The position numbers and the translations under genes were made by a program. This document shows positions 36,010 through 62,731 of a stretch of DNA of 64,000 nt, one piece after another (positions within the stretch are counted from its first letter, which is position 1; each line of letters opens with the position of its first letter). This DNA comes from Butyrivibrio sp. (GTDB lineage Bacteria > Bacillota > Clostridia > Lachnospirales > Lachnospiraceae). The notes beneath the pieces are model-generated. The model saw only the letters and a program-made list of their open reading frames with translations. It was not told where the DNA came from and ran no database searches. The DNA is taken from the NCBI GenBank assembly GCA_015056585.1, contig SVFZ01000002.1, positions 1-64,000 of the forward strand, written 5' to 3'.

Positions 36010-36558
36010 TTATATATTCGTAAGAGAGATGATCATTTCAGCAGTCTCTAACATGTCTGTACCGGAGTCCATGGCGCATTTCTGCAGATATTTATGAGCT
36101 TCAGGTTCAGTCATATGGTGCCTGTCCATCAAAAGAGCCTTCGCCTGCTCTATGACCTTTTTGTCAGCATCAGACCTCTGCATCCTACGCTCTTTTGCCT
36201 TTTTCTTGGCGCGCCTTACACCTTCGATCATGATGTTTAATGTTGAAAAAAGATCTGTCCTCTGGAGGGGTGTTGGCAGATATACAAAATTATCACTTTC
36301 CGTTTCTGTTGGCGCTTTGTTGGTAGAAGCGATCATTATCATTTTGAAATAGGCCGGCAGATCCTCAAGCAGCTCTGAATACAGCATGTCACTTAAGCGG
36401 TATCCACATATTATGACACCGCTTCCAAGATCGTCCATGGCAGAAAGAGCCTGTACTCCTGAAGTACAAATGACACCTCCGTCATATCCGCCACGGCTCA
36501 ATATGCTCTTCAATTTTTGCGCGTCCTCAGACTTTGCAAAAGCAACAATTATGTTCAC
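36010..36558 (-). CDS. ANTAR-domain RNA-binding antiterminator with pseudo-receiver
   Basis: A 182-residue protein that starts at GTG behind GAGGCGG. The C-terminal 60 residues form an ANTAR domain: KKVIEQAKALLMDRHHMTEPEAHKYLQKCAMD, the three-helix unit that binds paired RNA hairpins. The N-terminal 120 residues look like a response-regulator fold, but the phospho-acceptor position reads IICGYRLSD, with Gly in place of Asp, and the acidic pair near the N-terminus is missing. So control is unlikely to be by phosphorylation. It lies 82 bases after glnA and is probably co-transcribed with it. Hairpins of the ANTAR type are present in nitrogen-gene leaders of this window (38038, 49583, 59839). 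Confidence 0.88.
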   Translation of the reverse strand: MNIIVAFAKSEDAQKLKSILSRGGYDGGVICTSGVQALSAMDDLGSGVIICGYRLSDMLYSELLEDLPAYFKMIMIASTNKAPTETESDNFVYLPTPLQRTDLFSTLNIMIEGVRRAKKKAKERRMQRSDADKKVIEQAKALLMDRHHMTEPEAHKYLQKCAMDSGTDMLETAEMIISLTNI

Positions 36559-36640: not shown

Positions 36641-37978
36641 TCAGAAAAGGTTGAGGTACCTCTTGATCTCCCACTGTGTTACGCAGGTGCGGAAGTCCTT
36701 CCACTCTGCCCTTTTGGCATCAAGGAACTTATTATATATGGATTCTCCCAGGGTTTCTTTTACAAAATCATCCTGTTCATAAGCATGGATAGCTTCTCCA
36801 AGAGTCATAGGCAAAGTTTCTGTACCGCTTTCCCTGAGCTGTTCAAAGGTTGCATGAGCTAAATTCTCATTAAGCTCTGCAGGTGGTGTCATCTTTTTCT
36901 CAATTCCCTCTATTCCGGCAGCAAGAATAAGAGCAATAGCAAGATATGGATTGCATGTTGCATCAGGGTTTCTCAGCTCGATTCTTGTTCCGTTTCCTCT
37001 ATAAGAAGGTATACGAATAAGGGCACTTCTGTTGGCAGAAGAGGAAGACCAGGAAATGCTGACAGGAGCGTCATATCCGGGAACAAGCCTTTTATACGAG
37101 TTAACAAGCGGATTTGTCACGAGTGTCATTCCCTTGACGTGAGAAAGAACTCCCGCTATAAAACTCCTGGCTGTATCAGAAATGACTTCTCCGTCACCTG
37201 TACCAAAAAGGTTGTTGCCATCCTTGTCTTCTGCCTGAATATTGATGTGCATTCCGGAACCACTGATTCCCTCAGTAGGCTTCGGAAGAAAGGTTGCATA
37301 AAGCCCGTGTTTCTTGGCAATTGTCTTTACAGCCATGCGGAAAGTCATGATCATATCGGCTGTGCGCTCAGCATCCTCCGCCTTGAAATCAATTTCATGC
37401 TGGGCAGGCGCAATTTCATGGTGCGATGAGGAAATATCAAATCCCATCTCTTCAAGATTGAGAATAATATCTCTGCGCACATTTTCTCCCTGGTCTGCAG
37501 GCGCTACATCAAAATATCCGCCTTTTTCCTTGGTCTTTGTTGTAGGCTGACCCTCATCGTCATAGTCAAATAGGAAGAATTCAGGCTCAGGATTTACTTT
37601 AAATCTGATTCCAAGCTTCTCAGCTCTCTCAACCACCTGTTTAAGAACATTTCGTGGATCACCGGAAAATGGCTTTCTGTCTACTGTATAGACATCACAG
37701 AACATTCTTGCAACTTTGCCGGCCTGTGGACGCCATGGATAAATCTCAAAGCTGTCCAGATCAGGATAAAGATACATGTCACTCTCATCGCTTCTTACAA
37801 AGCCTTCAACCGATACTCCGTCAAACATGCATTCATTGTTGAGGGCGCTCTCCAGCTGGCTTGCAGCGATGGCAATATTCTTGGGAACGCCAAAAATATC
37901 GCAGAACTGAAGCCTGATAAAAGCTACATCCTCTTCCTCAACAATGCGAAATATATCTTTCTTCGTGTACTTGCTCAT
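36641..37978 (-). CDS. glnA: Glutamine synthetase type I
   Basis: A 445-residue type I glutamine synthetase, the GSI-alpha length. Landmarks are NPEPEFFLFDYD, SSHHEIAPAQHEIDF, GSGMHINIQ, NRSALIRIP and RIELRNPDATCNPYLA. The Tyr adenylylation motif region of GSI-beta and its 25-residue insertion are not apparent. It makes glutamine from glutamate, ammonia and ATP. The leader at 37995-38063 has a promoter, an ANTAR-like hairpin and an intrinsic terminator, so expression is probably set by antitermination through the ANTAR protein encoded just downstream. A GSIII enzyme is also encoded at 55950. Confidence 0.93.
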   Translation of the reverse strand: MSKYTKKDIFRIVEEEDVAFIRLQFCDIFGVPKNIAIAASQLESALNNECMFDGVSVEGFVRSDESDMYLYPDLDSFEIYPWRPQAGKVARMFCDVYTVDRKPFSGDPRNVLKQVVERAEKLGIRFKVNPEPEFFLFDYDDEGQPTTKTKEKGGYFDVAPADQGENVRRDIILNLEEMGFDISSSHHEIAPAQHEIDFKAEDAERTADMIMTFRMAVKTIAKKHGLYATFLPKPTEGISGSGMHINIQAEDKDGNNLFGTGDGEVISDTARSFIAGVLSHVKGMTLVTNPLVNSYKRLVPGYDAPVSISWSSSSANRSALIRIPSYRGNGTRIELRNPDATCNPYLAIALILAAGIEGIEKKMTPPAELNENLAHATFEQLRESGTETLPMTLGEAIHAYEQDDFVKETLGESIYNKFLDAKRAEWKDFRTCVTQWEIKRYLNLF

Positions 37979-37994
37979 AATCCCTCCTAATATG

Positions 37995-38046
37995 AAAAAA
38001 GCGCCAGAAACAGCGAACAGAAATGTGTTCGAGTTCTGGCGCCCTT
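37995..38046 (-). terminator. Leader terminator (attenuator) of glnA
   Basis: In the minus-strand RNA GCGCCAGAA pairs with UUCUGGCGC, followed by UUUUUU, all between the glnA promoter and its ribosome site. An inner CGAACA/UGUUCG stem lies within the loop. Placement ahead of the gene makes it an attenuator rather than an end-of-gene terminator. Confidence 0.85.
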
Positions 38047-38049
38047 GCC
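38038..38049 (-). promoter_or_regulatory. ANTAR-like hairpin in the glnA leader
   Basis: RNA reads GGC-AAGGGC-GCC: a short stem with a six-base loop having A at position 1 and G at position 4. Its 3' half is the same bases that form the ascending arm of the attenuator, so the two structures exclude each other. The stem is only 3 base pairs and no first hairpin is seen upstream of it, which makes this the weakest of the three AAGGGC copies in stem strength. Confidence 0.45.
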
Positions 38050-47721: not shown

Positions 47722-49500
47722 TTACTCCACATCCTGAAGAGCTGCGACGCCTTCTTCACCTGTACGTACCTTAACTACGCGGCTGACATTGTATACGAAG
47801 ATCTTACCGTCTCCGATGTGTCCTGTATAAAGAGCTTTCTTAGCCGCATCAATTACGTTCTGAACAGGAATCTTTGAAACTATGACTTCAACCTTAACCT
47901 TAGGAAGCAGGGTTGAATCGACTGTAGCACCACGATACTTTTCTGTGGATCCTTTCTGAACGCCGCAGCCCATAACCTGTGTCATTGTCATACCTGTTAC
48001 ACCAAGTTCATTGAGAGCTTTCTTCAAGGTATCGAACTTAGCGAGCTTACAGATAATTGAAACCTTGTGCATTCCTGTGTCGAATTCCTCTGACAAAGGC
48101 GCTTCCATAGCAACTGTAACTGCTGCGTTCTTCTTGGCTTCGCTTGCTGCCTCGTACTCAGTCTCACCAAGATCTGTGTTCTCATTTACATCCACTGTAA
48201 GTGTGTTTGAAATATCCATGATGCTGAATCCTGCATAAGCAGATGTAAGACCATGCTCTGTTGAATCAAGACCCTGAATTTCTTCTTCCTCAGATACTCT
48301 AAGACCGATGAGCGCCCTGATAACAAGGAAAGTAATATTTATTGTAATAGCTGTCCAACATGCTACTGTAGCAAGGCCGAGAAGCTGAAGACCAAGTGTA
48401 TGGAATCCACCGCCGTAGAAAAGGCCAACTATTCCGGTCTCTTCATTTCCGGGAGCTGTGGGAGTTGCAAAAAGGCCTACTGCAATAGTACCCCAGATAC
48501 CGTTCATCATGTGTACAGCAACTGCACCAACGGGATCATCAACTCTGAGCTTGTAATCAAGGAACCATACGCCAAAGCATACAAGAAGTCCGGCTACTGC
48601 GCCGATAACAATTGCTCCGAAGCAATCCGTAACATCACAAGGTGCTGTGATTGCTACAAGTCCTGCAAGAGAGGCGTTAAGTGACATTGATACATCAGGC
48701 TTACCATATTTTAACCATGTAAATACCATTGTTACGCAGGTTGCAACTGCAGGTGCTACTGTTGTTGTAAGGAAAATTGAAGCAAGCTGTTCCTGTGAAG
48801 TAGCTGCTGCACCGTTAAATCCATACCATCCGAACCAGAGAATAAAGCAGCCCAGTGCACCGATTGCCAGGTTACTTCCCGGGAATGCGTTTACTTCTGT
48901 GATCCTTCCGTTTTTGTCCTTTGTAAACTTACCGATACGAGGTCCAAGGATAGCCGCACCGATGAGGGCTGAAATACCGCCTACCATATGAATTGCGCAG
49001 GAACCGGCAAAATCGTGGAACCCCAGCTGTGAAAGCCAGCCACCGCCCCAGATCCAATGTGCCTCTATAGGATAGATAAGGCCTGAAATTACTGCTGAAT
49101 AAATACAGTATGAAAGGAATTTGGTTCTCTCAGCCATCGCACCGGATACGATGGTAGCTGTAGTTGCACAGAAAACCAGGTTAAACACGAAATTTGAAAA
49201 ATCAAAACTTGCATAAGCTGAAAAAATATCAAACCCGGGCCTTCCGATGAATCCTGCCAGGTCCTCTCCCAGTAAAAGAGAAAAACCGATCAAAATAAAC
49301 ATTACTGTTCCAATACAGAAATCCATGAGGTTCTTCATCAGGATATTTCCTGTATTCTTGGCTCTGGTGAATCCCGCCTCCACCATAGCAAATCCTGCCT
49401 GCATCCAAAATACAAGCGCTGCTCCTATCAGGAACCAGATTGCAAAAATAGTTGTTGTCGAAGTCTCAGATATTAAACTTCTAATAGCTTCTTCTGTCAT
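47722..49500 (-). CDS. amt: Ammonium transporter fused to a PII signalling domain
   Basis: A 592-residue fusion from ATG 49500, behind AAGGAGGAG; a frame 39 bases longer lacks that spacing. Residues 1-430 are an AmtB channel of about eleven helices, with FWMQAGFAMVEAGFTRAKN near the start, GAMAERTKF, HWIWGGGW and DFAGSCAIHMVGG. A linker of about 50 residues leads to a complete PII domain: KVSIICKLAKFDTLKKALNE, a T-loop with Tyr in KYRGATV, and GHIGDGKIFVYNV. A tethered PII can gate its own channel directly. The leader carries an ANTAR-like hairpin and attenuator. Confidence 0.92.
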   Translation of the reverse strand: MTEEAIRSLISETSTTTIFAIWFLIGAALVFWMQAGFAMVEAGFTRAKNTGNILMKNLMDFCIGTVMFILIGFSLLLGEDLAGFIGRPGFDIFSAYASFDFSNFVFNLVFCATTATIVSGAMAERTKFLSYCIYSAVISGLIYPIEAHWIWGGGWLSQLGFHDFAGSCAIHMVGGISALIGAAILGPRIGKFTKDKNGRITEVNAFPGSNLAIGALGCFILWFGWYGFNGAAATSQEQLASIFLTTTVAPAVATCVTMVFTWLKYGKPDVSMSLNASLAGLVAITAPCDVTDCFGAIVIGAVAGLLVCFGVWFLDYKLRVDDPVGAVAVHMMNGIWGTIAVGLFATPTAPGNEETGIVGLFYGGGFHTLGLQLLGLATVACWTAITINITFLVIRALIGLRVSEEEEIQGLDSTEHGLTSAYAGFSIMDISNTLTVDVNENTDLGETEYEAASEAKKNAAVTVAMEAPLSEEFDTGMHKVSIICKLAKFDTLKKALNELGVTGMTMTQVMGCGVQKGSTEKYRGATVDSTLLPKVKVEVIVSKIPVQNVIDAAKKALYTGHIGDGKIFVYNVSRVVKVRTGEEGVAALQDVE

Positions 49501-49554
49501 AATTTTTACTCCTCCTTGTTTGATCAAGTGGTTTTCCACTTGCTTCTATGCATT

Positions 49555-49593
49555 AAAAAGCGCCGCAGCGGATATCCCGCCACAGCGCCCTTG
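49555..49593 (-). terminator. Leader terminator (attenuator) of the amt gene
   Basis: In the minus-strand RNA GCGCUGUGGCGG pairs fully, with wobbles, to CCGCUGCGGCGC and is followed by UUUUU. It lies 55 bases before the start codon. A second small stem (CAAGUGG/CCACUUG) separates it from the ribosome site. Confidence 0.85.
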
Positions 49594-49596
49594 CTG
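49583..49596 (-). promoter_or_regulatory. ANTAR-like hairpin in the amt leader
   Basis: RNA reads CAGC-AAGGGC-GCUG: four Watson-Crick pairs plus one G-U, with the same hexaloop AAGGGC (A1, G4) seen at glnA and asnB. Its 3' strand is the start of the attenuator's ascending arm. A companion first hairpin could not be identified upstream. Confidence 0.5.
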
Positions 49597-49618
49597 CCTT
49601 AAATTATTGATGATATAC

Positions 49619-49762
49619 GAATTGCTACATGACTAAAGTCATTCTCGCAATTCTACAAGCATTCGGAAACCGCTAATTTACTACGTAAATTGCTAATTCC
49701 TCATGCTTGTTCGGGTCATAAAGTCAAAACGCTTAACAAGCAAGCTTGTACGCTTTTTTGAC
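49619..49762. other. Block of three nested hairpins between gltD and amt
   Basis: Three inverted repeats are packed in 144 bases. The first, 49619-49653, is GAATTGC/GCAATTC enclosing ATGACT/AGTCAT. The second, 49656-49709, is CAAGCAT/ATGCTTG-type arms enclosing GGAA/TTCC and AATTTA/TAAATT stems. The third, 49723-49762, is GTCAAAA/TTTTGAC enclosing ACAAGC/GCTTGT. None ends in a clear T run. The packing looks like a structured RNA, a REP-like intergenic element or a small non-autonomous mobile element. No coding frame is evident. Confidence 0.5.
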
Positions 49763-49779
49763 TTTTGACACCTATATCA

Positions 49780-51297
49780 TTACATGTTTGAATACCCCAT
49801 CAGATACTCATCGATTTCACGGGCACATTCTCTGCCCTCTGCAATAGCCCATACCACAAGGGATTGTCCCCTATGCATGTCCCCTGCTGTAAATACCTTG
49901 TTAACATTTGTTTTATAGTCAGGTAAAAGAGTCTCTACCACGCCTCTTTGTGTCAGTTTAACTCCAAAGGCATTCGCTGTGTATTCCTCACATCCCACAA
50001 AACCTGCTGCGATAAGAAGAAGGTCACATTTAAGTTCCTCTTCTGTTCCCGGAACTTCGCAGAGCTTTCCGTCCTTAAACTGCACCTTTACGGTTTTTAT
50101 TCCCACAAGTTTATCACCCTTGGTGATCAGCTCTTTTACCGTGGTTTCATAGATACGAGGGTCTGAGCCGTACTTGTTGATTGCTTCCTGCTGGCCGTAA
50201 TCGGTCTTTAATACCTTGGGCCACTCTGGCCATGGATTATCTGCCCTTCTCTCCTTTGGAGGCTCCGGCATCATCTCAAGCTGTACCACTGATCTGCATC
50301 CATGTCTTATACAGGTTGCAAGGCAATCATTTCCGGTATCTCCGCCGCCTACGATCACAACTCTTTTTTCCTTTGCACTGATAAAAGTACCTTCCTTCAG
50401 TTCGCTGTCCAAAAGGCTCTTTGTAGTAGATTTAAGGAAATCAACGGCATAGTGAACGCCCTTAACCTTTTCAAACCCTTTCACTCCAAGAGGTCTTGCC
50501 TTCTTTGCTCCGCAGCACAGAGCAATCGCATCATACTTTTTAAGAAGTTCCTTCGCTGTTACAGCGCTCTCTTCCGCTCCCGTGGCAGCTGTTTTTTTAG
50601 TATCACTTAAATTTTCAACTCCCACATTAACTCCTGTCTTAAATACAACACCCTCTTCTTCCATAAGCTTTTTGCGCCGTTCAATGACCTCTTTTTGAAG
50701 CTTCATATTTGGAATACCATACATCAGAAGGCCTCCGATGCGATCTTCTCTCTCATAAACGGTTACGCTGTGCCCTCTGTGATTAAGCTGGTCGGCAACT
50801 GCAAGTCCCGAAGGCCCGCTTCCTATTACAGCCACCTTTTTGCCGCTTCTGATCTTAGGAATCCTGGGCTTCATCAGCCCCCGGGCAAATGCAGTCTCAA
50901 TAAGATACAGCTCATTATTATGGATAGTCACCGGGGCATCGCTTATTCCGCATATGCAGGCTTTTTCACAGAGAGCCGGGCATACCCTTCCGGTAAACTC
51001 CGGGAAGTTGCTGGTTTTTAAGAGTCTTGAAAGAGCATGTGGAATATGGTCATGATATATTTCATCATTCCATTCCGGAATCAGATTATGAAGCGGACAT
51101 CCTGTAACCATGCCCTTTAATCTGATGGCTGACTGGCACATCGGCACTCCGCAGTTCATACACCTTGCACCTTGCTGCTTTCTCTTTTCCGGGTCCAGGC
51201 AAATATGAAATTCATTATAATTCAATATGCGCTCATCTTCAGGAATTGTTACATCCTCGCATCTTGCATATTCCAAAAATCCTGTTGGCTTTCCCAT
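49780..51297 (-). CDS. gltD: Glutamate synthase (NADPH) small subunit
   Basis: A 505-residue flavoprotein. The N-terminus has CMNCGVPMC and GCPLHNLIPEWN, then VCPALCEKACICG, the cysteines for two 4Fe-4S clusters. The first dinucleotide fold is VAVIGSGPSGLAVADQL (FAD) and the second VVIVGGGDTGNDCLATCIRHG (NADPH). It closes with VFTAGDMHRGQSLVVWAIAEGR. It passes electrons from NADPH to GltB. It lies 61 bases after gltB, the last gene of the asnB-GSIII-gltB-gltD run. A short insertion rich in Ala and Lys around residues 228-245 is unusual but does not touch known sites. Confidence 0.93.
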   Translation of the reverse strand: MGKPTGFLEYARCEDVTIPEDERILNYNEFHICLDPEKRKQQGARCMNCGVPMCQSAIRLKGMVTGCPLHNLIPEWNDEIYHDHIPHALSRLLKTSNFPEFTGRVCPALCEKACICGISDAPVTIHNNELYLIETAFARGLMKPRIPKIRSGKKVAVIGSGPSGLAVADQLNHRGHSVTVYEREDRIGGLLMYGIPNMKLQKEVIERRKKLMEEEGVVFKTGVNVGVENLSDTKKTAATGAEESAVTAKELLKKYDAIALCCGAKKARPLGVKGFEKVKGVHYAVDFLKSTTKSLLDSELKEGTFISAKEKRVVIVGGGDTGNDCLATCIRHGCRSVVQLEMMPEPPKERRADNPWPEWPKVLKTDYGQQEAINKYGSDPRIYETTVKELITKGDKLVGIKTVKVQFKDGKLCEVPGTEEELKCDLLLIAAGFVGCEEYTANAFGVKLTQRGVVETLLPDYKTNVNKVFTAGDMHRGQSLVVWAIAEGRECAREIDEYLMGYSNM

Positions 51298-51358: not shown

Positions 51359-54300
51359 TCAGCTTCTTGTCATTTCATTAAATGCCTCAAGAACCGCATT
51401 TTCATGTGATATTCCCTGTTCCTCATATTTTCCTATAGCGCTGATGACCTTCATATAATCATGCGGAACAATCTTTTTAAAGTGAGGGATATATTCATCA
51501 AATTTACCCAGAACCTCACGGCCAAGTTCTGAACCTGTTTCTTTTACATAATCATCAAGAATACTGTGAAGCTCCTGAATATCATATTTGTCCGTAAGCT
51601 CCTGGAATGAAACCATCTCTTTGTTCATTCTTCTGTAAAGATCATGCTTAAGATCCAGAACATATGCTATTCCACCACTCATTCCCGCTGCAAAGTTTTT
51701 ACCGGTCTCTCCAAGGACTACTGCCCTTCCTCCGGTCATATACTCAAGGCCGTGATCTCCGCAGCCTTCCACAACAGCTGTTGCACCGGAATTTCTTACG
51801 CAGAATCTTTCGCCTGCAACTCCGCAGATATAAGCTTTTCCTGATGTCGCGCCGTAAAGTGCAACATTTCCGATGATTATGTTCTCCGAAGCCTTAAAAG
51901 TTGATGTCTTTGGAGGAATCACAACAATCTTTCCGCCGGAAAGTCCTTTTCCAAGTCCGTCGTTGGCGTCTCCCTCAAGCTTTAGTGTCATTCCCTTAGG
52001 AATAAAGGCTCCAAAGGACTGTCCGACACCGCCCTTGCAGTTAATAACGAAGGTATCATCTGCAACTTCAGTTCCAAGCTTGTCGGTAATTACAGAACCC
52101 ATGATAGTTCCTACAGCTCTGTTGGTGCTTGTAACCTGAACATCCTCTGTGTGCTTTTTGCCATCAGCGATATATTTATCAAACGCCGGTAAAAGAACTG
52201 ACTCATCCACTGTGGTTTCCAGTTTGAAGTCATATATTTTTGAAGGATTGAAATGCTTTTCGGGTACTGCTGCGTAATCTCTGTTAAGGATCTGCTCGAG
52301 GTTTACCATCTCAGCTCTCTTTGTTATCTGCTTATCCTTAACCTTGAGGCAGTCAGTTCTGCCTACCATTTCGTCTACAGTCTTAAAGCCCAGCTTTGCC
52401 ATGATCTCTCTGAGTTCTTCTGCTATAAACAGCATGAAGTTCATTACGTACTCAGGCTTTCCTTTAAAGCGTTTTCTAAGCTCCTCGTTCTGGGTTGCAA
52501 TTCCAAAAGGACAGGTATCCTGATTACATACTCTCATCATCATGCATCCCATGGTTACAAGGGGCGCTGTTGCAAAACCAAATTCCTCTGCTCCCAGAAG
52601 GCACGCTATAGCCACGTCTCTTCCGCTCATGAGCTTACCGTCTGTTTCAAGAATGACATGGTCTCTGAGTCCGCTCTCAATAAGGGATCTGTGTGCCTCA
52701 GCTACACCAAGCTCCCAGGGAAGTCCGGCATTGTGAATTGAGCTTTGAGGGGCAGCTCCTGTACCACCGTCATACCCGGATACAAGGATTACCTGGGCAC
52801 CTGCCTTGGCAACACCTGATGCAATTGTTCCTACTCCGGCCTCTGATACAAGCTTTACAGAAATCCTTGCTCTTCTGTTGGCATTTTTAAGGTCAAATAT
52901 AAGCTGCGCCAAATCCTCTATAGAATAGATGTCATGGTGAGGTGGCGGTGATATCAGCGACACTCCCGGGGTTGAGAACCTTGTCTTTGCAACCCACGGA
53001 TATACCTTCTTGCCCGGAAGATGTCCGCCTTCGCCGGGCTTTGCGCCCTGCGCCATCTTTATCTGTATTTCCTGGGCGCTTAAAAGGTATCTGCTGGATA
53101 CTCCGAATCTTCCCGATGCCACCTGCTTTATTGCGCTGTTCTTTAGTGTTCCAAATCTCTCAGGCATCTCGCCACCCTCACCGGTATTGGATTTTCCCCC
53201 CAGTGTGTTCATGGCAATCGCCATGGTCTCATGGGCTTCCTGAGAAATTGAGCCATAGCTCATGGCTCCTGTATTAAATCTCTTTACGATTTCAGATGCA
53301 GGTTCAACCTGGTCTAAGGGAATCGGGTTCTTTGCAGGAACAAACTCAAGAAGTCCCCTTAAGGTATGCGGTTTCTCGTTATCAACAATATCCGTATATT
53401 CCTTAAATCTCTCGTAGCTGCCTGACTGTGTTGCCTGCTGAAGCGCTATTATAGTTTGAGGATTATAGAGATGATCCTCCTTGTCATTTCCGCTTCTCAG
53501 CTTATGGAAGCCTGTGCTGTCAAGGGATGTGTCTGTCACCAGGCCCATGGGGTCAAAAGCATGATCGTGCCTGAACTTGATGCCTTCCTCAATCTCGGCA
53601 AGACCGATTCCGCCTACTCTGCTGACAGTTCCTGTAAAATAGTCATCAATAACTTCCTTTGAAAGGCCGATTGCCTCAAATATCCTTGCAGACTGATATG
53701 ACTGAAGGGTTGAAATACCCATTTTTGCAGCTGTTTTTACAATGCCGTGAAGGATTGCAAAGTTGTAATCCTTTATGGCTGTGTGATAATCCTTGTCAAG
53801 AATGCCAATATCTATCAGCTCGGAAATACATTCATGGGCCAAGTACGGGTTTATTGCTCTTGCGCCAAATCCAAGGATCGTAGCCATCTGATGCACGTCT
53901 CTGGGCTCTCCGCTTTCCAGAATAAGCGATATGGCTGTTCTTTTCTTGGTCCTTACCAGATGCTGCTCAACAGAGGAAACCGCCAGAAGTGAAGGAATTG
54001 CCACATGGTTTTCATCAATACCCCTGTCTGAGAGGATGATAATGTTGTAGCCCTTGCTGTAAGCCCTGTCTACACTGATTGAAAGCTGCTCCAAGGCCTT
54101 CTTTAAGGATGTATTCTTGTAATACAGTAAAGATACCGTGCCGGTCTTAAATCCCGGCTGATCCAGTGTCTTTATCTTCATCAGATCAACGCCGGTGAGG
54201 ATCGGGTTATTAACCTCAAGTACGCGGCAGTTATCGCTCTTTTCCTGCAGAAGGTTACCGTCAGATCCGATATAAACCGTTGTATCCGTTACAATTTCTT

Positions 54301-55873
54301 CCCTGAGAGAATCGATCGGCGGGTTAGTAACCTGGGCAAAAAGCTGCTTGAAGTATGAGAAAAGAAGCTGATGTTTTTCGGAAAGAACAGCCAATGGAAC
54401 ATCATGTCCCATGGAAGCTGTTGCTTCCACGCCGTTTGTCGCCATCGGAAGAATTCCGTTTTTCACATCCTCATAGGTATAGCCAAAGGCTTTATAGAGC
54501 TTGTCTCTCATTTCCTGAGTGTGAGTCGGTATCTTCTTATTAGGTATGCTCAGCTCTCCAAGATGCAGCAGATTTCCGTCAATCCACTCGCCGTAAGGCT
54601 GCCTTGATGCATAGTATTTCTTACATTCCTCATCGGAGATGATCCTCTTTTCAACAGTATTTACAAGAAGGATCTTTCCGGGCTGAAGTCTTGATTTTTT
54701 CACAATGTGCTCCGGCTCGATGTCAAGTACACCGACTTCCGACGCAAGGATCAGTCTGTTGTCATCTGTGATGTAATATCTTGAAGGTCTCAGGCCGTTT
54801 CTGTCCAGCGTTGCTCCAAGGATGTCACCATCAGAGAAAAGAATAGCTGCAGGACCGTCCCAAGGCTCCATCATGGTTGCATAATAGTGATAGAAGTCCT
54901 TCTTTTCCTCATCCATGAAATGATTATGTTTCCAGGGCTCAGGAATCGTGATCATCGCTGCCAGAGGAAGATCCATTCCGTTCATGTACATGAATTCAAG
55001 GGTGTTATCCAGCATTGCCGAGTCTGAGCCGGTCTTACTTACAACGGGGAAAATCTTGTCGATATCGGCGTCCTTCATAACAGGAGAGATAATTGTCTCC
55101 TCTCTGGCCAACATTCTGTCGATATTGCCTCTTATGGTATTGATCTCACCGTTGTGGGCGATCATCCTGTAAGGATGGGCTCTTTCCCAGCTGGGAGTCG
55201 TGTTAGTCGAGAATCTTGAATGTACGATGGCAATAGCTGTCTTGTAGTCCTTGCTCTGAAGGTCCTCATAGAAGGCTCTGAGCTGCTTTACAAGGAACAT
55301 TCCCTTATAAACGATAGTTCTTGAGGATAAAGATGTGATGTAGGTATCCTCTGAACTTTGCTCAAATTCTCTTCTGCAGATATAGAGCTTTCTGTCAAAG
55401 TCGATTCCTCTCTCTACATCTGAAGGTCTTTCTATGAAACACTGGCAGATATATGGCATGCAGTCCCTTGCCATGTCTCCGAGGATTTCAGGATGAACCG
55501 GAACGTCTCTCCAACCAAGAAATTTCATTCCGCTTTTTTCACAGATCACTTCAAACATTCTTTTTGCAAAGGTTCTCTTAAGCTCATTCTGTGGAAAGAA
55601 GAACATTCCTATTCCGTAGTCTCTTGCGTCCTTAAGCTCCACTCCGCAGCATCTTGCAGCCTTGGAAAAAAATCTGTGGGAAATCTGAAGAAGGATTCCT
55701 ACACCGTCTCCAACCTTTCCGCTGGCATCCTTTCCTGCACGGTGCTCCAGCTTCTCAACAATACTAAGTGCGTCGTCAAGGGCCTTTATATCAGCATGTC
55801 CGTCTATATTTACTACTGCTCCGATACCGCAGGCATCGCGCTCTATTGTATCGTTGTATAGCATCTTTTCCAT
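51359..55873 (-). CDS. gltB: Glutamate synthase large subunit
   Basis: A protein of about 1504 residues. The start at 55873 is preferred because GGGAG lies 9 bases upstream; an ATG three codons earlier abuts that site. A short propeptide precedes the catalytic Cys in RDACGIGAVVNIDG, which is exposed by cleavage for glutamine hydrolysis. The central domain follows, then the FMN-binding synthase domain with GGTGAAPQSSIHNAGLP and the CxxxxxC cluster in MRVCNQDTCPFGIATQ. The C-terminal GXGXG helix includes GDANDGLGKGLSGGKI. It makes two glutamates from glutamine and 2-oxoglutarate. Confidence 0.93.
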   Translation of the reverse strand: MEKMLYNDTIERDACGIGAVVNIDGHADIKALDDALSIVEKLEHRAGKDASGKVGDGVGILLQISHRFFSKAARCCGVELKDARDYGIGMFFFPQNELKRTFAKRMFEVICEKSGMKFLGWRDVPVHPEILGDMARDCMPYICQCFIERPSDVERGIDFDRKLYICRREFEQSSEDTYITSLSSRTIVYKGMFLVKQLRAFYEDLQSKDYKTAIAIVHSRFSTNTTPSWERAHPYRMIAHNGEINTIRGNIDRMLAREETIISPVMKDADIDKIFPVVSKTGSDSAMLDNTLEFMYMNGMDLPLAAMITIPEPWKHNHFMDEEKKDFYHYYATMMEPWDGPAAILFSDGDILGATLDRNGLRPSRYYITDDNRLILASEVGVLDIEPEHIVKKSRLQPGKILLVNTVEKRIISDEECKKYYASRQPYGEWIDGNLLHLGELSIPNKKIPTHTQEMRDKLYKAFGYTYEDVKNGILPMATNGVEATASMGHDVPLAVLSEKHQLLFSYFKQLFAQVTNPPIDSLREEIVTDTTVYIGSDGNLLQEKSDNCRVLEVNNPILTGVDLMKIKTLDQPGFKTGTVSLLYYKNTSLKKALEQLSISVDRAYSKGYNIIILSDRGIDENHVAIPSLLAVSSVEQHLVRTKKRTAISLILESGEPRDVHQMATILGFGARAINPYLAHECISELIDIGILDKDYHTAIKDYNFAILHGIVKTAAKMGISTLQSYQSARIFEAIGLSKEVIDDYFTGTVSRVGGIGLAEIEEGIKFRHDHAFDPMGLVTDTSLDSTGFHKLRSGNDKEDHLYNPQTIIALQQATQSGSYERFKEYTDIVDNEKPHTLRGLLEFVPAKNPIPLDQVEPASEIVKRFNTGAMSYGSISQEAHETMAIAMNTLGGKSNTGEGGEMPERFGTLKNSAIKQVASGRFGVSSRYLLSAQEIQIKMAQGAKPGEGGHLPGKKVYPWVAKTRFSTPGVSLISPPPHHDIYSIEDLAQLIFDLKNANRRARISVKLVSEAGVGTIASGVAKAGAQVILVSGYDGGTGAAPQSSIHNAGLPWELGVAEAHRSLIESGLRDHVILETDGKLMSGRDVAIACLLGAEEFGFATAPLVTMGCMMMRVCNQDTCPFGIATQNEELRKRFKGKPEYVMNFMLFIAEELREIMAKLGFKTVDEMVGRTDCLKVKDKQITKRAEMVNLEQILNRDYAAVPEKHFNPSKIYDFKLETTVDESVLLPAFDKYIADGKKHTEDVQVTSTNRAVGTIMGSVITDKLGTEVADDTFVINCKGGVGQSFGAFIPKGMTLKLEGDANDGLGKGLSGGKIVVIPPKTSTFKASENIIIGNVALYGATSGKAYICGVAGERFCVRNSGATAVVEGCGDHGLEYMTGGRAVVLGETGKNFAAGMSGGIAYVLDLKHDLYRRMNKEMVSFQELTDKYDIQELHSILDDYVKETGSELGREVLGKFDEYIPHFKKIVPHDYMKVISAIGKYEEQGISHENAVLEAFNEMTRS

Positions 55874-55911
55874 CTCGTTCATCTCCCGAAAACTCGTATC
55901 TTATATTCAGT

Positions 55912-55949: not shown

Positions 55950-58040
55950 TTACTCTGAGAAAAGAAGGTCTGAATATACCGGGAATGGCCAGTATTTCTC
56001 ATCCACCAACAGTTCCAGTGCATCAGCAGACTCTCTTGCGGCATTCATATCTGCAATGATAGTCTTGTGGAAATATACCATTGCCTTCCATGGATCTGAA
56101 GGAACCTTATCCATGTCTTTTGCCAGCTTCTGACACTGTTTCATCAGAGCATCTGTGAGGACAGCAACTTCTTTTGATGTATCTGTTTCATAAGCTGTTA
56201 CGCAGCCGGCTGCCTTAAGTGTGGCCATTCTGTCGCAAAGATCAGCAGCATAGGAAGAAACTGCAGGAAGGATCTGCCTTCTGATCATGTCAAGCATAGT
56301 ATTTGCTTCAATCGCAATCTTGGCATTGTAGGTATCAGCATGGATAAGAGCTCTTGCCTCAAGCTCTCCGGCGGTATATACGCCATTTCCAACATATAGA
56401 TCAACCGCTTTCTTGTCAGCGTAATGAGGCAGCGCGTCTGCTGTGGATACGTGATTTGAAAGTCCTCTCTTTGATGCCTCTTTTACCCAGGCATCATCAT
56501 AGCCGTTGCCGTTGAAGATTATCCTTTGATGCTCTGTAAAGGTCTTCTTTATGAGCTTGTTGAGGTCTGCAGTGAAGTTCTTGGAGTTCTCAAGCTTGTC
56601 TGCAAATTCCTTAAGTTCCTGTGCCATGATGGTGTTGAGGGCGATGTTTGGTCCTGAGATTGACTGTGCTGAGCCAAGCATACGGAACTCAAATTTATTA
56701 CCGGTAAAGGCCATAGGTGATGTTCTGTTTCTGTCCGTGTTGTCCTGTGGAATAGAAGGAAGGACATCTATGCCGATCTCAATCTTTTTCTTGCCTCCGT
56801 CCTTGTAAGGCTTTCCACTGATGATGGATTCCACCACTGCCTCAAGTTCGTCACCGAGGAAAATAGAAATAATTGCAGGCGGTGCTTCCTGCGCGCCGAG
56901 TCTGTGATCGTTTCCTGCCGAAGCTACTGTACACCTTAATGTATCCTGATACTCATCAACGCCCTTTACAAAAGCTGCAAGGAATAACAAGAACTGGGCA
57001 TTCTGGCTTGGTGTGCTGCCGGGCTTTAAGAGGTTTTTACCAGTATCTGTTCCGATTGACCAGTTGTCATGTTTACCTGAACCGTTGACACCGGCAAACG
57101 GCTTCTCATGAAGGAGACATACAAACCCATGTCTGTCAGCTACTTTCTTCATGATGTCCATTGTAATCTGGTTGGAATCGGCAGCTGTGTTTGCATCTGA
57201 GTAAACAGGTGCCATCTCATGCTGTGCGGGAGCAACCTCGTTGTGCTTTGTTTTTGAAAGAACTCCCAGCTTCCACAACTCATTGTCCAGATCCTCCATG
57301 TATGCTGCAACTCTGGGCTTAATTGCGCCAAAGTAATGATCCTCAAGCTCCTGTCCCTTAGGAGGCTTGTTGCCAAACAGTGTTCTTCCTGTCATGATCA
57401 GGTCTTCACGCTCTTTATAAAGAGCCTTATCCACAAGGAAGTACTCCTGCTCAGGTCCGCACTGTGCTGTTACACGTTTGGTCTCTGTATCGCCGAAGAG
57501 TCTCAGTACTCTGATGGACTCTCTGCTAACTGCATCCATAGAACGAAGAAGCGGAGTCTTTTTATCCAGAGCCTCTCCTGAATATGAAAGGAAAATGGTT
57601 GGGATATAAAGTGAATTATCTTTTACAAAGGCAAAAGATGTGGGATCCCACGCTGTATAGCCTCTTGCCTCAAAGGTTGCTCGAAGGCCGCCTGACGGGA
57701 ATGAGGAAGCATCCGGCTCTCCTCTTACCAGCTCTTTTCCGGAAAAGTCCATCACAATCTTTCCGCCGCCTACAGGATCAATGAAACTGTCGTGCTTTTC
57801 GGCTGTAACACCGGTCATTGGCTGGAACCAGTGTGTATAGTGGGTTGCACCCTTTTCAACTGCCCACTGCTTCATGGCCTCTGCAATCTCATTAGCTGTA
57901 TCAAGCTCAAGCGGTGATCCGTCTGTTATGCATTTCTTCCATGCCTTGAATGATGCGCTCGAGAGCCTGTCTTTCATAGTCTCCTCGTTAAATACGTTAC
58001 TTCCAAATAACTCCGGTAAATGTGTTGCTTCGCTTTTCAT
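55950..58040 (-). CDS. glnN: Glutamine synthetase type III
   Basis: A 696-residue GSIII, the expected length for this large subtype. The catalytic core is recognisable in GPEQEYFLVD, HNEVAPAQHEMAPVYSD, GVNGSGKHDNWSIGTDTG, SAGNDHRLGAQEAPPAI and DRNRTSPMAFTGNKFEFRM. The N-terminal FGSNVFNEETM and the C-terminal helical region are GSIII-specific. It lies between asnB and gltB with short gaps and a strong AAGGAGGAG site, so it belongs to the asnB-led operon. Having it alongside a GSI (37978) gives two glutamine synthetases, possibly used at different nitrogen levels. Confidence 0.93.
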   Translation of the reverse strand: MKSEATHLPELFGSNVFNEETMKDRLSSASFKAWKKCITDGSPLELDTANEIAEAMKQWAVEKGATHYTHWFQPMTGVTAEKHDSFIDPVGGGKIVMDFSGKELVRGEPDASSFPSGGLRATFEARGYTAWDPTSFAFVKDNSLYIPTIFLSYSGEALDKKTPLLRSMDAVSRESIRVLRLFGDTETKRVTAQCGPEQEYFLVDKALYKEREDLIMTGRTLFGNKPPKGQELEDHYFGAIKPRVAAYMEDLDNELWKLGVLSKTKHNEVAPAQHEMAPVYSDANTAADSNQITMDIMKKVADRHGFVCLLHEKPFAGVNGSGKHDNWSIGTDTGKNLLKPGSTPSQNAQFLLFLAAFVKGVDEYQDTLRCTVASAGNDHRLGAQEAPPAIISIFLGDELEAVVESIISGKPYKDGGKKKIEIGIDVLPSIPQDNTDRNRTSPMAFTGNKFEFRMLGSAQSISGPNIALNTIMAQELKEFADKLENSKNFTADLNKLIKKTFTEHQRIIFNGNGYDDAWVKEASKRGLSNHVSTADALPHYADKKAVDLYVGNGVYTAGELEARALIHADTYNAKIAIEANTMLDMIRRQILPAVSSYAADLCDRMATLKAAGCVTAYETDTSKEVAVLTDALMKQCQKLAKDMDKVPSDPWKAMVYFHKTIIADMNAARESADALELLVDEKYWPFPVYSDLLFSE

Positions 58041-58082: not shown

Positions 58083-59741
58083 TCACGAAATTCTTCTGAG
58101 ATTTTCTTTATTGGTTGTATCATCCAGCGTACTGCCCGATTCTCCGTAGTTGGAAAGGACTCTTGCAGAAGGATCGTTAACATTGCAGCCTTCCCACTCC
58201 TTATTTGGCATCCAGAAGTCTTTTATCATCTCGGCCTGCCCCGGGTAGAACTCTTCAAATATTTCCCTGTACATAAGACTTTCCTTGGTAAATGGCCGGC
58301 AGTAAGTGTATTTCTTTCTGCGCTCCTCAAACTCTTCATCCGTATATTTCTCCTCTGCGTAAGCTTTTAGGTCATCCACCATGCTGTGTCCCACTGCATC
58401 GGAGAAGGCGGCCTTCTGTCTCCAGAGGATGTTTTCCGGAAGAAGTTCATCCTTCTCGAAAGCATGTCTTAACAGGTATTTTCCCATGTTGTATTTATTT
58501 AATTTGATCTCCGGATCGATGCTCATTACATATTTGACAAAAGATACGTCGCCGAAGGGAACTCTCGCTTCAAGGCTGTTTGCACTTATGCATCTGTCTG
58601 CTCTTAATACGTCGTACATATAGAGCTCATCAACTCTCTTTTTTGCCTCTTTCTGGAAAGCCTCAGCGTCAGGTGCAAAGTCCGTATACTTGTAACCGAA
58701 GAGCTCGTCTGATATCTCGCCGGTCATAAGAGCTCTCACATCAGTGTTTTCATGTATCCATTTGCAGCAAAGGTACATTCCCATGCTGGCTCTTATTGTA
58801 GTGATGTCCCAGGTTCCAAGGAGCTTTATGACATTGGGAAGTTCATCAATGACCTGCTCTCTTGTCATGTACACCTCTGTGTGCTCTGATCCGATGAAGT
58901 CTGCAACTTCCTTGGCAAACTTAAGATCAATGGCATCCTTTTCCATTCCGATGGCGAAGGTCCTTATCCGTTTTGCCGGAGCCTTTTCTTTTTTTGCCTT
59001 CTCATCCAGAATTCTCTGGCTTATGGCACATACAAGGCTTGAATCAAGGCCTCCTGACAAAAGAAATCCCAGCGGTGCGTCAGCATCCAATCGCTCTTCA
59101 ACCGATTTTACGAATCTGTCGTGGATCTGCCTGCAGGCTGCTTCAACGCTTGAGGTGCTGTATTTCTCCACATCCGTCAGATTTTCAAACCTTACAAACT
59201 CACCGTCCTCGTAGTAGTGTCCCGGAGGGAATGGCTTTATCCTCTTGCACAACCCCTCAAGGTTACAGGCTTCCGAGGCAAACATTATTGCTCCGTCCTC
59301 TCCATATCCGTAAAAGAGTGGCCTGATTCCCATCGGATCTCTTCCTGCGACAAGTGCATTTTTCTCACTGTCGTAAATGATGCAGGCAAATTCACTTCCA
59401 AGCATTTTCCACATCTGCCTGCCATATTCTCTGTAAAGCGGGAGAATGACTTCGCAGTCCGAATCGCTCTTAAAGCTGTATCCTTTTTGCTCAAGGTCTT
59501 TCTTGATTTTCCGAAAGCCGTATATCTCTCCGTTGCATACCGCCATGTTTTTGCCCAGCTCAAAGGGCTGCATGCCTTCGAGGTGAAGTCCCATGATGGC
59601 CAGTCTGTGAAACCCAAGATACCCTATCTCTGTTTCCACAAGCTTTGACATGTCAGGACCTCTTTTTACAGTCCTGTCAAAAAAGGGTTTCAACTCACTT
59701 TCTTTTATGGTTTTTGATGTGGTGCCGAGTATTGAACACAT
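58083..59741 (-). CDS. asnB: Asparagine synthase (glutamine-hydrolysing)
   Basis: A 552-residue AsnB. Cys2 in MCSILGTT is the glutaminase nucleophile and the Ntn domain covers about the first 200 residues. The synthetase half has the PP-loop LLSGGLDSSLVCAI and EISDELFGYKYTDFAP. It transfers the glutamine amide to aspartyl-AMP. Its promoter and leader (59791-59921) hold tandem ANTAR-type hairpins and an attenuator, and it is the first of four genes leading to GSIII and glutamate synthase, so this leader may set expression of the whole assimilation operon. Confidence 0.93.
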   Translation of the reverse strand: MCSILGTTSKTIKESELKPFFDRTVKRGPDMSKLVETEIGYLGFHRLAIMGLHLEGMQPFELGKNMAVCNGEIYGFRKIKKDLEQKGYSFKSDSDCEVILPLYREYGRQMWKMLGSEFACIIYDSEKNALVAGRDPMGIRPLFYGYGEDGAIMFASEACNLEGLCKRIKPFPPGHYYEDGEFVRFENLTDVEKYSTSSVEAACRQIHDRFVKSVEERLDADAPLGFLLSGGLDSSLVCAISQRILDEKAKKEKAPAKRIRTFAIGMEKDAIDLKFAKEVADFIGSEHTEVYMTREQVIDELPNVIKLLGTWDITTIRASMGMYLCCKWIHENTDVRALMTGEISDELFGYKYTDFAPDAEAFQKEAKKRVDELYMYDVLRADRCISANSLEARVPFGDVSFVKYVMSIDPEIKLNKYNMGKYLLRHAFEKDELLPENILWRQKAAFSDAVGHSMVDDLKAYAEEKYTDEEFEERRKKYTYCRPFTKESLMYREIFEEFYPGQAEMIKDFWMPNKEWEGCNVNDPSARVLSNYGESGSTLDDTTNKENLRRIS

Positions 59742-59790: not shown

Positions 59791-59850
59791 ATAAAAAGGG
59801 CGTTGACGGAAAGTCATCAGATTAGCTGACTATATCCATCAACGCCCTTG
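59791..59850 (-). terminator. Leader terminator (attenuator) of the asnB operon
   Basis: Minus-strand AAGGGCGTTGA pairs with TCAACGCCCTT and is followed by TTTTTAT. An inner stem GTCA/TGAC fills the loop. It stands between the asnB promoter and ribosome site, so it acts before the gene. Confidence 0.88.
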
Positions 59851-59879
59851 TTGAGTATCATTGAATACCTGTATACAAT
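59839..59879 (-). promoter_or_regulatory. Tandem ANTAR-type hairpins (P1 and P2) in the asnB leader
   Basis: P1 (59860-59879): AUUGUAU-ACAGGU-AUUCAAU, seven pairs with one U-U mismatch and a hexaloop with A1 and G4. After 5 bases comes P2 (59839-59854): UCAAC-AAGGGC-GUUGA, five pairs and again an A1/G4 hexaloop. P2's loop and 3' arm are the ascending arm of the attenuator, so P2 and terminator exclude each other. This is the complete two-hairpin form bound by ANTAR proteins. Confidence 0.65.
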
Positions 59880-59891
59880 TTTGCTATTCAA

Positions 59892-59921
59892 ATATTATTC
59901 CATGCATAAAACTCTTGTCAA
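59892..59921 (-). promoter_or_regulatory. Promoter of the asnB-GSIII-gltBD operon
   Basis: TTGACA and TAATAT on the minus strand, 18 bases apart, beginning 21 bases after the purF stop. It is the strongest promoter in the nitrogen block by consensus. Confidence 0.8.
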
Positions 59922-59941: not shown

Positions 59942-61387
59942 TTATTTATCAAATTCTCCCCTGATATCCGTGGTCGGAGGCTCCATAGGATATTTGCCGG
60001 TAAAGCATCCTTTGCAGATGCCAAGTTTTCCGCCAACCATTTCCTCGAGTCGCTCTATACCAAGATATGCCAAAGAATCCGCGCCAATGATCTTGCAGAT
60101 ATCCTCAACGTTTCGGTTGTAGGCAATAAGCTGGTCTCTGGCAGGTACATCTGTACCAAAATAGCAGGGCCACAAAAACGGAGGCGAACTTACCCTCATG
60201 TGTACCTCTTTTGCCCCGGCATCCCGAAGCATCCGTACAATCCTGTCAGAAGTGGTTCCGCGCACAATGGAGTCATCGATCATGATGATGCGCTTTCCCC
60301 GGACTGCGCTCTTTAAGGCATTTAGCTTCACCTGAACACTGGATTCACGGTTCTTTTGCCTGGGCTTAATAAAAGTCCTGCCAATATACGAATTCTTAAC
60401 AAATGCCTGACCGTAGGGAATCCCTGATTCCAGCGCATAACCCAGCGCAGCCACATTTCCCGATTCCGGGACACCCACTACCATATCCGCATCCACAGGT
60501 GAATCTTTTGCCAGAAACCTTCCTGCAGCAATTCTTGCATCATAAACACTTACGCCGTCAATATTGCTGTCGGGTCTTGCAAAATAGATATATTCAAAGA
60601 TACACCTTGCATGTTTGCTCTCTTCGATGCACAGGCTCTTATCCGAGCGGATTCCGTACTCCGGCGAAATAGTGACAATTTCTCCGGGCTCCACATCCCT
60701 GATAAAGGTTGCACCTATCGTGTCAAGGGCACAGGTCTCTGAGGCAAGGATATAGCAGTTCTCTCTCCTGCCGATGACAAGTGGTTTAAAGCCGTAGGGA
60801 TCCCTTGCTCCGATGAGCTTTCTGGGCGATGCGATTACAAGGCTATAGGCTCCTTTGATCTTTTGCATAGCCCTTCCGACTGCCTCTTCAACCGACTTGG
60901 ATTCAAGTCTCTCCCTGGCAATATAATATGCGATAACCTCAGAATCTATCGTAGTCTGGAAAATCGCACCGGTGTAAGAAAGCTCATGGCGAAGCTCCGG
61001 TGCATTTATCAGATTACCGTTATGGGCAAGGGCCAGTGTACCCTTAACATAGTTAAGTACCAGTGGCTGCGCATTTTCTCTTGTGCTACTGCCGGCTGTG
61101 GAATAGCGCACATGCCCCACACCGATATCTCCCTTGAGCTTATCCAGCTCCTCGTGAGTAAAGGCCTCATTAACCAGTCCCATATCCTTGTAACTAAGAA
61201 CCTTTCCTTTGGGGCCGTTTGTATCACTTACTGCAATACCGCAGCTCTCCTGGCCCCTGTGCTGCAAAGAGACCAGTCCGTAATAGATGGAGGTTGCTAC
61301 ATCTCCACCATCAAAATCATACATGCCAAAAACGCCGCACTCTTCGCCAAGGCGTTTGTATGGCGCAGTTCTGCTCAAATCCTGCAT
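59942..61387 (-). CDS. purF: Amidophosphoribosyltransferase
   Basis: A 481-residue PurF. A short propeptide precedes Cys17 in [11 protein letters not shown], the glutaminase nucleophile after processing. The phosphoribosyltransferase half has the PRPP loop [17 protein letters not shown]. Four Cys residues near the C-terminus, including [10 protein letters not shown], suggest the 4Fe-4S cluster of the Bacillus-type enzyme. It commits PRPP and glutamine to purine synthesis. Its first 13 bases overlap the dapL 3' end, so both are on one transcript, and it is not with other pur genes here. Confidence 0.93.
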
Positions 61388-62595
61388 TGTTTAATCCTAT
61401 CCACAGCTTTAATTGTATTTTCCTTTGAGCCAAAGCCTGTAAGTCTGAAATAGTGCTCGCCACCGGGGCCAAAACCTGATCCCGGGGTGCCAACAACATT
61501 TGCCTTATCAAGGAGCGTGTCAAAGAACTCCCAGCTGGTCATGTTATTTGGAGTCTTAAGCCAGATGTAAGGCGCATTTACGCCGCCGGATACCTGATAG
61601 CCCGCTTCTTTAAGGCCATCATGAATATACTTGGCATTCCACATGTAATAGCCAATCTGCTCTTTCACCTGGGCTCTGCCTTCCTCAGTATAGATGGCTT
61701 CTCCTGCTCTCTGGATAATGTATGGCGCACCGTTGTACTTGGTTCCATGTCTTCTTGCCCACAGTGGCCAGAGCTTAACACCTTCCGCCTCAAGCTCTTT
61801 TGGCACAACAGTAAAGCCAAGCCTTAGCCCTGTAAATCCTGCTGTTTTGGAAAAAGACCTGAATTCGATCGCGCACTTTTTTGCCCCGTCACATTCATAG
61901 ATACTGTGAGGAATACCGGGCTCTGAAATATATGCTTCGTATGCTGCGTCAAAAAGGATTATGCTGCCATGCTCGTTGGCATAATCAACAAATTCCTGGA
62001 GCTTTTCCTTAGTGGCAACAGCTCCTGTAGGGTTATTGGGAAAACAAAGATATATAAGGTCTGGGACTTCCTCGGGAAGTTCAGGCGCAAAGCCGTTCTC
62101 CTCCTTGCAAGGCATATAAATAACTCCCTTGTATCTGTCGGCTGCAGGGTCAAATTCTCCGGTCCTTCCTGCCATAACATTGGAATCCACATAGACAGGG
62201 TAAACAGGGTCGCAGACAGCTATTGTATTATCAAGCCCGAAGATTTCCTGGATATTTCCACAGTCGCACTTTGCTCCGTCAGAAACAAAGATTTCGTCAG
62301 GTGAAATATCGCAGCCTCTTGAGGCAAAGTCATTTTCTGCAATTGCTTTTCTCAAGAACTCATAGCCAAGGTCAGGGGCATAGCCCTTGAATGTGGCTTC
62401 GTTTCCCATCTCCTCAACCGCCTTGTTAAGCGCATTTATAACTGCAGGTGCTATAGGCCTTGTTACATCACCTATTCCAAGTCTGATTATTTCTGCTTCC
62501 GGATGCTCCTCCTGATATTTTGCAACCTTCTGTGCAATTCTCGAAAACAGATAGCTCCCCGGGAGCTTTAAAAAGTTCTTGTTTACCTTAGCCAT
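61375..62595 (-). CDS. dapL: LL-diaminopimelate aminotransferase
   Basis: A 406-residue PLP aminotransferase; ATG 62595 follows GGAGGT directly, and the longer frame opening at 62670 would run through the leader. The family start [20 protein letters not shown] is clear, with [10 protein letters not shown] and the PLP Lys in [16 protein letters not shown]. DapL converts tetrahydrodipicolinate to LL-diaminopimelate with glutamate as amino donor, a one-step lysine/peptidoglycan route. It overlaps purF. A strong promoter and an attenuator-like hairpin lie just upstream. Confidence 0.92.
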
Positions 62596-62646
62596 TTTTA
62601 CCTCCGGATTTTCTTTATTTACACACATATTCTGCGTTCGGACATA

Positions 62647-62686
62647 CAAAAAAGGCGACTTAGAGCCCAAACTCTAAGACGCCTTT
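62647..62686 (-). terminator. Terminator between bioY and dapL
   Basis: Minus-strand AAGGCG-CTTAGAG pairs with CTCTAAG-CGCCTT with one T-T mismatch, followed by TTTTTT. It lies after the dapL promoter, so it ends bioY transcripts and also acts as an attenuator for dapL. Confidence 0.85.
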
Positions 62687-62691
62687 GTCTT
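62676..62691 (-). promoter_or_regulatory. Possible ANTAR-like hairpin in the dapL leader
   Basis: RNA reads AAGAC-AAAGGC-GUCUU: a five-pair stem and a hexaloop with A1 and G4, overlapping the ascending arm of the terminator exactly as at asnB, amt and glnA. The loop differs by one base from AAGGGC and no first hairpin is seen, so chance is not excluded. Confidence 0.35.
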
Positions 62692-62702: not shown

Positions 62703-62731
62703 ATGTTACTCCTTGAAAAGAGCTATGTCAA
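62703..62731 (-). promoter_or_regulatory. Promoter of dapL-purF
   Basis: TTGACA and TAACAT on the minus strand with a 17-base spacer, immediately downstream of the bioY stop. Confidence 0.75.

Follow-up and report, generated by a model that had tools for sequence, protein, structure and literature searches.

The leader of the asparagine synthase gene asnB in this rumen Butyrivibrio-like bacterium very probably contains a real RNA on/off switch ahead of nitrogen-assimilation genes. We hold with good confidence, from comparison of sequences, that this leader belongs to a nitrogen regulon which would be switched by a glnA-linked, NitR-like ANTAR protein through single hexaloops. In form, the switch resembles an ANTAR attenuator with one hexaloop placed next to the start site, and four candidates of this kind lie in the window (the whole stretch of 64,000 nucleotides analysed, to which all positions below refer). 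Many relatives appear to have this one-hairpin switch as well, whereas two hairpins are the textbook form of the system.

An earlier sequence-only reading had placed a promoter, two successive hexaloop hairpins (P1 and P2) and a terminator ahead of asnB, and the promoter, a P1-like sequence, P2 and the terminator are all present on the minus strand. The promoter TTGACA-N18-TAATAT, recognised from sequence, lies at 59892-59921 (TTGACA 59921-59916, TAATAT 59897-59892). It is followed by a P1-like element (AUUGUAU-ACAGGU-AUUCAAU, 59860-59879), by the P2 hairpin UCAAC-AAGGGC-GUUGA with the antiterminator hexaloop (59839-59854) and by an intrinsic terminator ending in U5 (59793-59849), the 5' arm of which begins inside the P2 loop and includes the 3' side of P2. 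Downstream, asnB (asparagine synthase B, 58083-59741), the type III glutamine synthetase gene (GSIII, 55950-58040), gltB (glutamate synthase large subunit, 51359-55882) and gltD (glutamate synthase small subunit, 49780-51297) follow in the order that had been claimed, encoded on the minus strand like the leader and separated by 42-67 nt. The predicted fold of the leader has an energy of -38.5 kcal/mol (z -7.0), which none of 200 shuffles reached, and the computed energy of P2 as drawn is -3.2 kcal/mol. The covariance-model check that had been proposed for the leader, conducted with Rfam, returned noise only at asnB. A loose descriptor of two A1/G4 hexaloop hairpins with an overlapping terminator matched the asnB site and one place within the amt coding region of the window, and gave seven matches in 20 resampled control windows. 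The dual-hairpin pattern alone is therefore weak evidence, and it is conservation that carries P2.

The six closest asnB genes are those of Butyrivibrio (85-91% identity), and eight distinct Butyrivibrio-type asnB leaders were compared: the window, L032-L037 and L231, with L032 standing for a set of eight members counted by hand. P2 was kept in all eight, with arms UCAAC/GUUG(A or G). Its loop is AAGGGC in six of them (L032 included), GAGGGC in L037 and AAUGGC in L231, and the inner loops of the terminators that follow differ among the eight. Over a wider set of 107 asnB leaders, the hexaloop-plus-terminator descriptor gave any match in 23, and approximately 20 leaders have P2; among the matches, that in L037 was out of register (the real loop being GAGGGC) and those in L066 and L083 were judged wrong by eye. 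Two further asnB leaders (L040 and L041) have motifs that we take to resemble those of T-box leaders, which suggests that one RNA switch has been exchanged for another at asnB.

It had also been supposed that the whole cluster is controlled by this one switch. However, separate hexaloop attenuators on terminators precede dapL-purF, amt-PII and glnA-ANTAR on the minus strand of the same window, making the asnB switch one of at least four. Ahead of dapL (LL-diaminopimelate aminotransferase, 61375-62670) and the purF gene after it (59942-61387), a promoter TTGACA-N17-TAACAT (62703-62731) is followed, 11 nt past its -10 box, by the single hexaloop hairpin AAGAC-AAAGGC-GUCUU (62676-62691), leaving no room for a P1, and by an overlapping terminator with U6 (62648-62686). 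The gene for an ammonium transporter fused to a P-II domain (amt-PII, 47722-49539) is preceded by the single hexaloop hairpin GCAGC-AAGGGC-GCUGU (49582-49597) and an overlapping terminator with U5 (49555-49592). At glnA (glutamine synthetase type I, 36641-37978), a short hexaloop hairpin of 3 bp, GGC-AAGGGC-GCC (38038-38049), occurs 8 nt after TAAAAT (38063-38058) and is overlapped by a terminator with U6 (37995-38044). This leader serves glnA together with the gene of an ANTAR regulator with a pseudo-receiver (36010-36558), which thus seems, on its sequence context, to be under its own switch.

A Clostridiales-1 RNA (Rfam RF01699, 112 bits) was identified at 49611-49779 on the minus strand, between gltD and the amt-PII attenuator. 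It may be part of the amt-PII leader or a separate small RNA. At gathering scores, neither RF01699 nor any other Rfam family was found in 20 amt-type loci elsewhere (seven of them with 300 nt of upstream sequence only). The genome to which the window belongs has a further possible hexaloop attenuator, GAC-AAGGGC-GUC (3 bp; L114:1440-1550), a weak match to the covariance model R1 described below; downstream of it is a LysR-type gene, with an acetamidase/formamidase-like gene transcribed divergently (names from reading the translations).

The survey of P2-type sites was conducted with covariance model R1, built from 16 leaders. It starts at the first loop base, such that the 5' arm of P2 lies outside the model, and has the terminator overlapping P2 built in. 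From 24 candidates, the near-duplicates L039 and L058 and the doubtful L067 and L083 were removed, and of the remaining 20 a further four were set aside, namely L038, L110 and window:49552, which were out of register in MAFFT, and L034, which is near L036. With 150 Lachnospiraceae-type genomes (own included, and many of those surveyed being fragmented assemblies), R1 gave 103 matches at E <=0.001 in 67 genomes; a few of these are the two strands of one terminator, and all 103 were read. A P2 arm of at least 3 bp was present in 73 of them, spread over 52 genomes. Where the match lay within approximately 400 nt upstream of a homologue of a window nitrogen gene, the unmodelled 5' arm (at least 3 bp) was found in 51 of 51 cases, against 0 of 51 in each of the six registers obtained by sliding the pairing one to three bases either way. 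Six of these 51 are rows of R1 itself, pre-picked for the hairpin; the remaining 45 also all have the arm. The next genes of the 51 sites are GSIII (21), amt (10), asnB (8), gltB (5), purF (4), dapL (2) and glnA (1). Among the other 52 matches the arm was present in 22, and the next genes include carA, pyrG, gdhA and argD (one each named by NCBIfam), PII-like and amino-acid transport genes (from translations read) and some that are unnamed.

Covariation over 42 distinct hairpins was 0.555 vs 0.282 when shuffled (0/500), and at most 0.191 when slid. In the 73 arm-bearing sites the closing pair is C-G in 73, the loop has G4 in 73 and A1 in 72, the loop bases being part of R1 so that only the closing C is independent in these counts. 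R1 detects sites that resemble its own rows, so that a two-hexaloop site whose loops differ from these could escape the model. It also missed the amt and glnA sites of the window, which were recognised by the descriptor and by reading the sequence, respectively. A hexaloop attenuator was also observed before pyrG (CTP synthase) at L168, L185 and L205, the gene being named by NCBIfam for L168 only; pyrG is known elsewhere for another attenuation mechanism.

Of the 73 arm-bearing sites, 64 have a recognised promoter, and in 55 of these P2 follows 7-12 nt after the end of the -10 box, from which P2 should start at, or a few bases from, the transcript start. The asnB leader of the window, with 37 nt between the -10 box and P2, is longer than most, leaving room where the P1-like element fits. 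Upstream A1/G4 hairpins were no commoner than expected from shuffled upstream sequence: 6 of 73 sites vs 5.3 for stems of at least 3 bp, 1 of 73 vs 2.0 for at least 4 bp, and 3 of 73 vs 6.5 with one mismatch allowed, one of these three being the asnB P1 of the window, which requires the mismatch. The arrangement of a dual-hexaloop site, in which two hairpins with stems of 3 bp or more stand a short linker apart and both loops conserve A1 and G4, was accordingly not supported by these sites, position 4 of the P1-like loop being variable. What was found is a terminator overlapping P2, an ANTAR protein in the same genome and the one hexaloop hairpin with G4 of a minimal single-hexaloop site.

The genome of the window (94.5% complete) encodes one PF03861 protein, at 36010-36558 beside glnA. 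It scores 66.9 bits against PF03861, well above the curated cut-off of 27.3, and its 182 aa resemble Rv1626, EutV and AmiR by sequence and by predicted fold (pLDDT 92.8). With EutV numbering placed on the alignment, the equivalents of Lys149 and Met172 are K140 and M163, invariant in 19 rows, and the place of Tyr164, which stacks on G4 in EutV, is taken by His in the window protein and in AmiR and by His, Phe or Tyr in relatives. At the receiver position that we take to be the phosphoacceptor, with the register set from the receiver consensus and strand 47-52 of the predicted model, all 19 aligned proteins have G, N, S, A, T or V. The Asp of a phosphorylation-activated regulator of the EutV type is thus missing, and the signal would be expected to arrive via a protein partner, not a histidine kinase. 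It probably comes through GlnA or PII as the first candidates. In each of 20 further regions read, all in hairpin-positive genomes other than that of the window, the ANTAR gene has a glnA homologue beside it. The NitR gene is itself glnA-linked, and the regulator of the window, whose gene adjoins glnA, resembles this known protein.

Co-occurrence supports a link between the hairpin and the ANTAR protein. PF03861 is present in 131 of the 150 family genomes, nearly always as a single protein, and in 52 of 52 genomes with the hairpin (p 1.6e-4, with genomes treated as independent, which relatives are not). ANTAR-less family genomes gave six R1 matches in four genomes, none with the arm. Speaking against it, R1 at its threshold gave no site in 79 of the 131 family genomes with an ANTAR protein. 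A survey of 291 genomes of the class listed 48 R1 matches at E <=3e-4 (two being the window's own and one being in G022, already read), and the arm was present in 26 of the other 45 matches read. The class-level genomes read number 25, from 15 labelled families, and GSIII is downstream in 14 of the 21 sites of one class-level set (one 1.15 kb away). Across the class, 26 of 27 hairpin genomes (own and G022 included) have an ANTAR protein, vs 145 of all 291 (Fisher p 6e-8, with genomes again treated as independent, which relatives are not), and nine of 10 R1 matches in ANTAR-less class genomes lack the arm. At G247:C37:3670-3709 (L311), a hexaloop attenuator precedes GSIII in a genome without an ANTAR match even at E 10; the assembly is of 200 contigs and scored 96% complete, and G415, of the same genus, has an ANTAR protein.

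These comparisons bring out, at the level of sequence, the hairpin, its overlap with a terminator, its target genes, its place near a predicted start and its co-occurrence with ANTAR proteins; binding by the ANTAR protein, the direction of control and the signal are what we infer from them. In the proposed mechanism, a C-G closed hairpin with hexaloop AARGGC, placed at the extreme 5' end of the transcript or close to it in most leaders found, would arise just behind RNA polymerase. When no protein is bound, the loop and the 3' arm would pair with downstream RNA to form the terminator. An active ANTAR protein, presumably active under nitrogen limitation, would hold the hexaloop, block the terminator and allow the genes to be read. 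One hexaloop would suffice, a P1 recruitment hairpin being unrecognisable at nearly all sites. Control by nitrogen status would agree with the account of NitR given in a review (PMC6316151).

We consider it quite improbable that the hexaloop hairpin is instead served by another RNA-binding factor or acts by itself, with ANTAR proteins correlated through shared lineages and nitrogen gene sets. The evidence for ANTAR consists of co-occurrence and linkage, and both the one ANTAR-less genome with the hairpin and the 79 ANTAR-positive family genomes without an R1-found site would fit such a reading. Set against it, the hairpin has what was published as the least that ANTAR recognition needs, a single hexaloop bearing G4 (PMC8934654), and 15 of the 16 R1 matches in ANTAR-less genomes, family and class together, have no arm. 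A self-acting P2 (-3.2 to -5.7 kcal/mol) would not displace the terminator (-22 to -35) unaided at equilibrium. That the asnB leader is a classical dual-hexaloop site, with P1 (ACAGGU) recruiting, P2 as antiterminator and the single-hexaloop sites being a separate matter, also appears unlikely. The order of the elements, the short linker and A1/G4 in the window speak for it, as does G4 in six of the eight distinct Butyrivibrio asnB leaders, in which the P1 loop is ACAGGU but for ACAAGU in L032 and ACACGU in L037; P1 may therefore have some role there. As drawn, however, the window P1 contains an internal U.U mismatch and comes out at +1.6 kcal/mol alone, and a stable P1 was rejected on this energy. 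In the eight leaders the four inner positions are invariant, the U.U mismatch included, and pairing fails in one at the fifth pair, in three at the sixth and in six at the outermost seventh. Most of the P2-bearing asnB leaders outside Butyrivibrio have no P1. The ANTAR-type antitermination that had been proposed before asnB is thus well supported as regards P2 and its terminator, but the P1 half of the 'complete tandem site', without a constant G4, unstable and no commoner than chance at related sites, could not be upheld; likewise, of the two hexaloops expected to be conserved in homologous asnB leaders, P2 is kept and P1 varies at loop position 4 and in its outer pairs.

The core of the P1-like element, the 14-mer GTATACANGTATTC (59863-59876), bears on the same question. 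Searched with one free central base, it gave 32 matches in 32 of 61 genomes of the genus, vs seven for the reversed pattern. In the 30 loci read, its centre, which is P1 loop position 4, takes all four bases (A13/T10/G6/C1), and nowhere within it does an invariant A precede an invariant G by three positions. It stands mostly before amt-PII (23 loci), with five loci before asnB and two before neither, and at the amt loci the flanking bases add no hexaloop stem (rows compared by eye). In the asnB and amt leaders of Butyrivibrio, a recruitment hairpin is probably not what the P1-like element represents. It is fairly probable that GTATACANGTATTC serves beside the P2 attenuator as the DNA operator of some nitrogen regulator, or else as an RNA element in its own right, either of which is compatible with the single-hexaloop explanation favoured here. 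This would account for 28 of the 30 loci having it ahead of amt or asnB in the same orientation (only that strand being scored) and for its setting in amt leaders, described below; on the other side, the nitrogen regulator would be a putative one, and as the core is fixed by the search pattern, its conservation cannot separate DNA from RNA recognition.

Twenty-two amt leaders of the genus, chosen for holding GTATACANGTATTC, share one architecture. All 22 start with an attenuator whose loop is AAGGGC or AAAGGC; the P1-like element follows, and after it, again in all 22, a second hexaloop hairpin, whose loop is AATGGG except in L232 (AAAGGG). For the second hairpin the descriptor accepts a terminator in three of the 22 rows only, and in L244 and others the 5' arm of the terminator seems, by eye, to begin before this hairpin. 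Approximately 50 nt before GTATTC, amt leaders among L219-L248 have TCCGGA(G) or TCCGCGGA, then GTATAC-loop-GTATACANGTATTC, located between the two hexaloop hairpins. Judged by eye, an outer stem (GAATAC/GTATTC) and an inner one (GTATAC/GTATAC) may form, and some of the changes in them compensate one another. This combined element could be an RNA element or an operator.

Known ANTAR systems allow the switch to be placed. Two hairpins form the ANTAR target of Ramesh et al. (2012; PMC3369931), with sites preceding nitrogen genes of diverse bacteria, and the search in PMC8164766 likewise demanded two stem-loops. From a EutV-RNA structure, the minimal binding motif was redefined as one hexaloop (PMC8934654); the same source describes P1 as required for antitermination by EutV in vivo, calls for work on single hexaloops and expects them where polymerase timing is immaterial. 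When nitrogen is limiting, the GS/GOGAT cycle genes of Clostridium saccharobutylicum are induced by its ANTAR protein NitR (PMC6316151, citing Stutz 2007). Like EutV/eutP, NasR/nasF and AmiR/amiE (PMC3369931), the sites described here combine an A1/G4 hexaloop, its 3' side overlapping a terminator, with an ANTAR protein and nitrogen genes. Unlike them, P1 is unrecognisable at nearly all sites, P2 is at or near the transcript start and its loop is restricted to AARGGC, closed by C-G. A binding unit of one hexaloop agrees with the minimal motif of PMC8934654, whereas single hexaloops on terminators differ from the expectation in that paper. As with NitR, an ANTAR regulator would be tied to GS/GOGAT genes and nitrogen limitation (PMC6316151), but the present sites also precede asnB, purF, dapL, carA, pyrG, gdhA and amt-PII, across genomes. 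No report of single-hexaloop attenuators was found in a literature search outside which most subscription journals lay.

PMC8934654 leaves open the extent to which ANTAR proteins use single hexaloops, and a natural set of such attenuators makes the question directly testable. The set spans a regulon of rumen and gut bacteria, its sequence rule is simple and its target genes are clear; search models that require two hairpins, such as those in PMC3369931 and PMC8164766, would be expected to pass over its sites. We think it likely, from the sequences compared, that glutamine-making and glutamine-using enzymes of Clostridia form a regulon under a glnA-linked ANTAR protein, which acts via single-hexaloop attenuators at the first nucleotides of the transcript and does without the recruitment hairpin on which present antitermination models for ANTAR proteins rely. 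The 5'-terminal position may take over the part that P1 plays elsewhere. For Lachnospiraceae, this proposes how glutamine metabolism is controlled.
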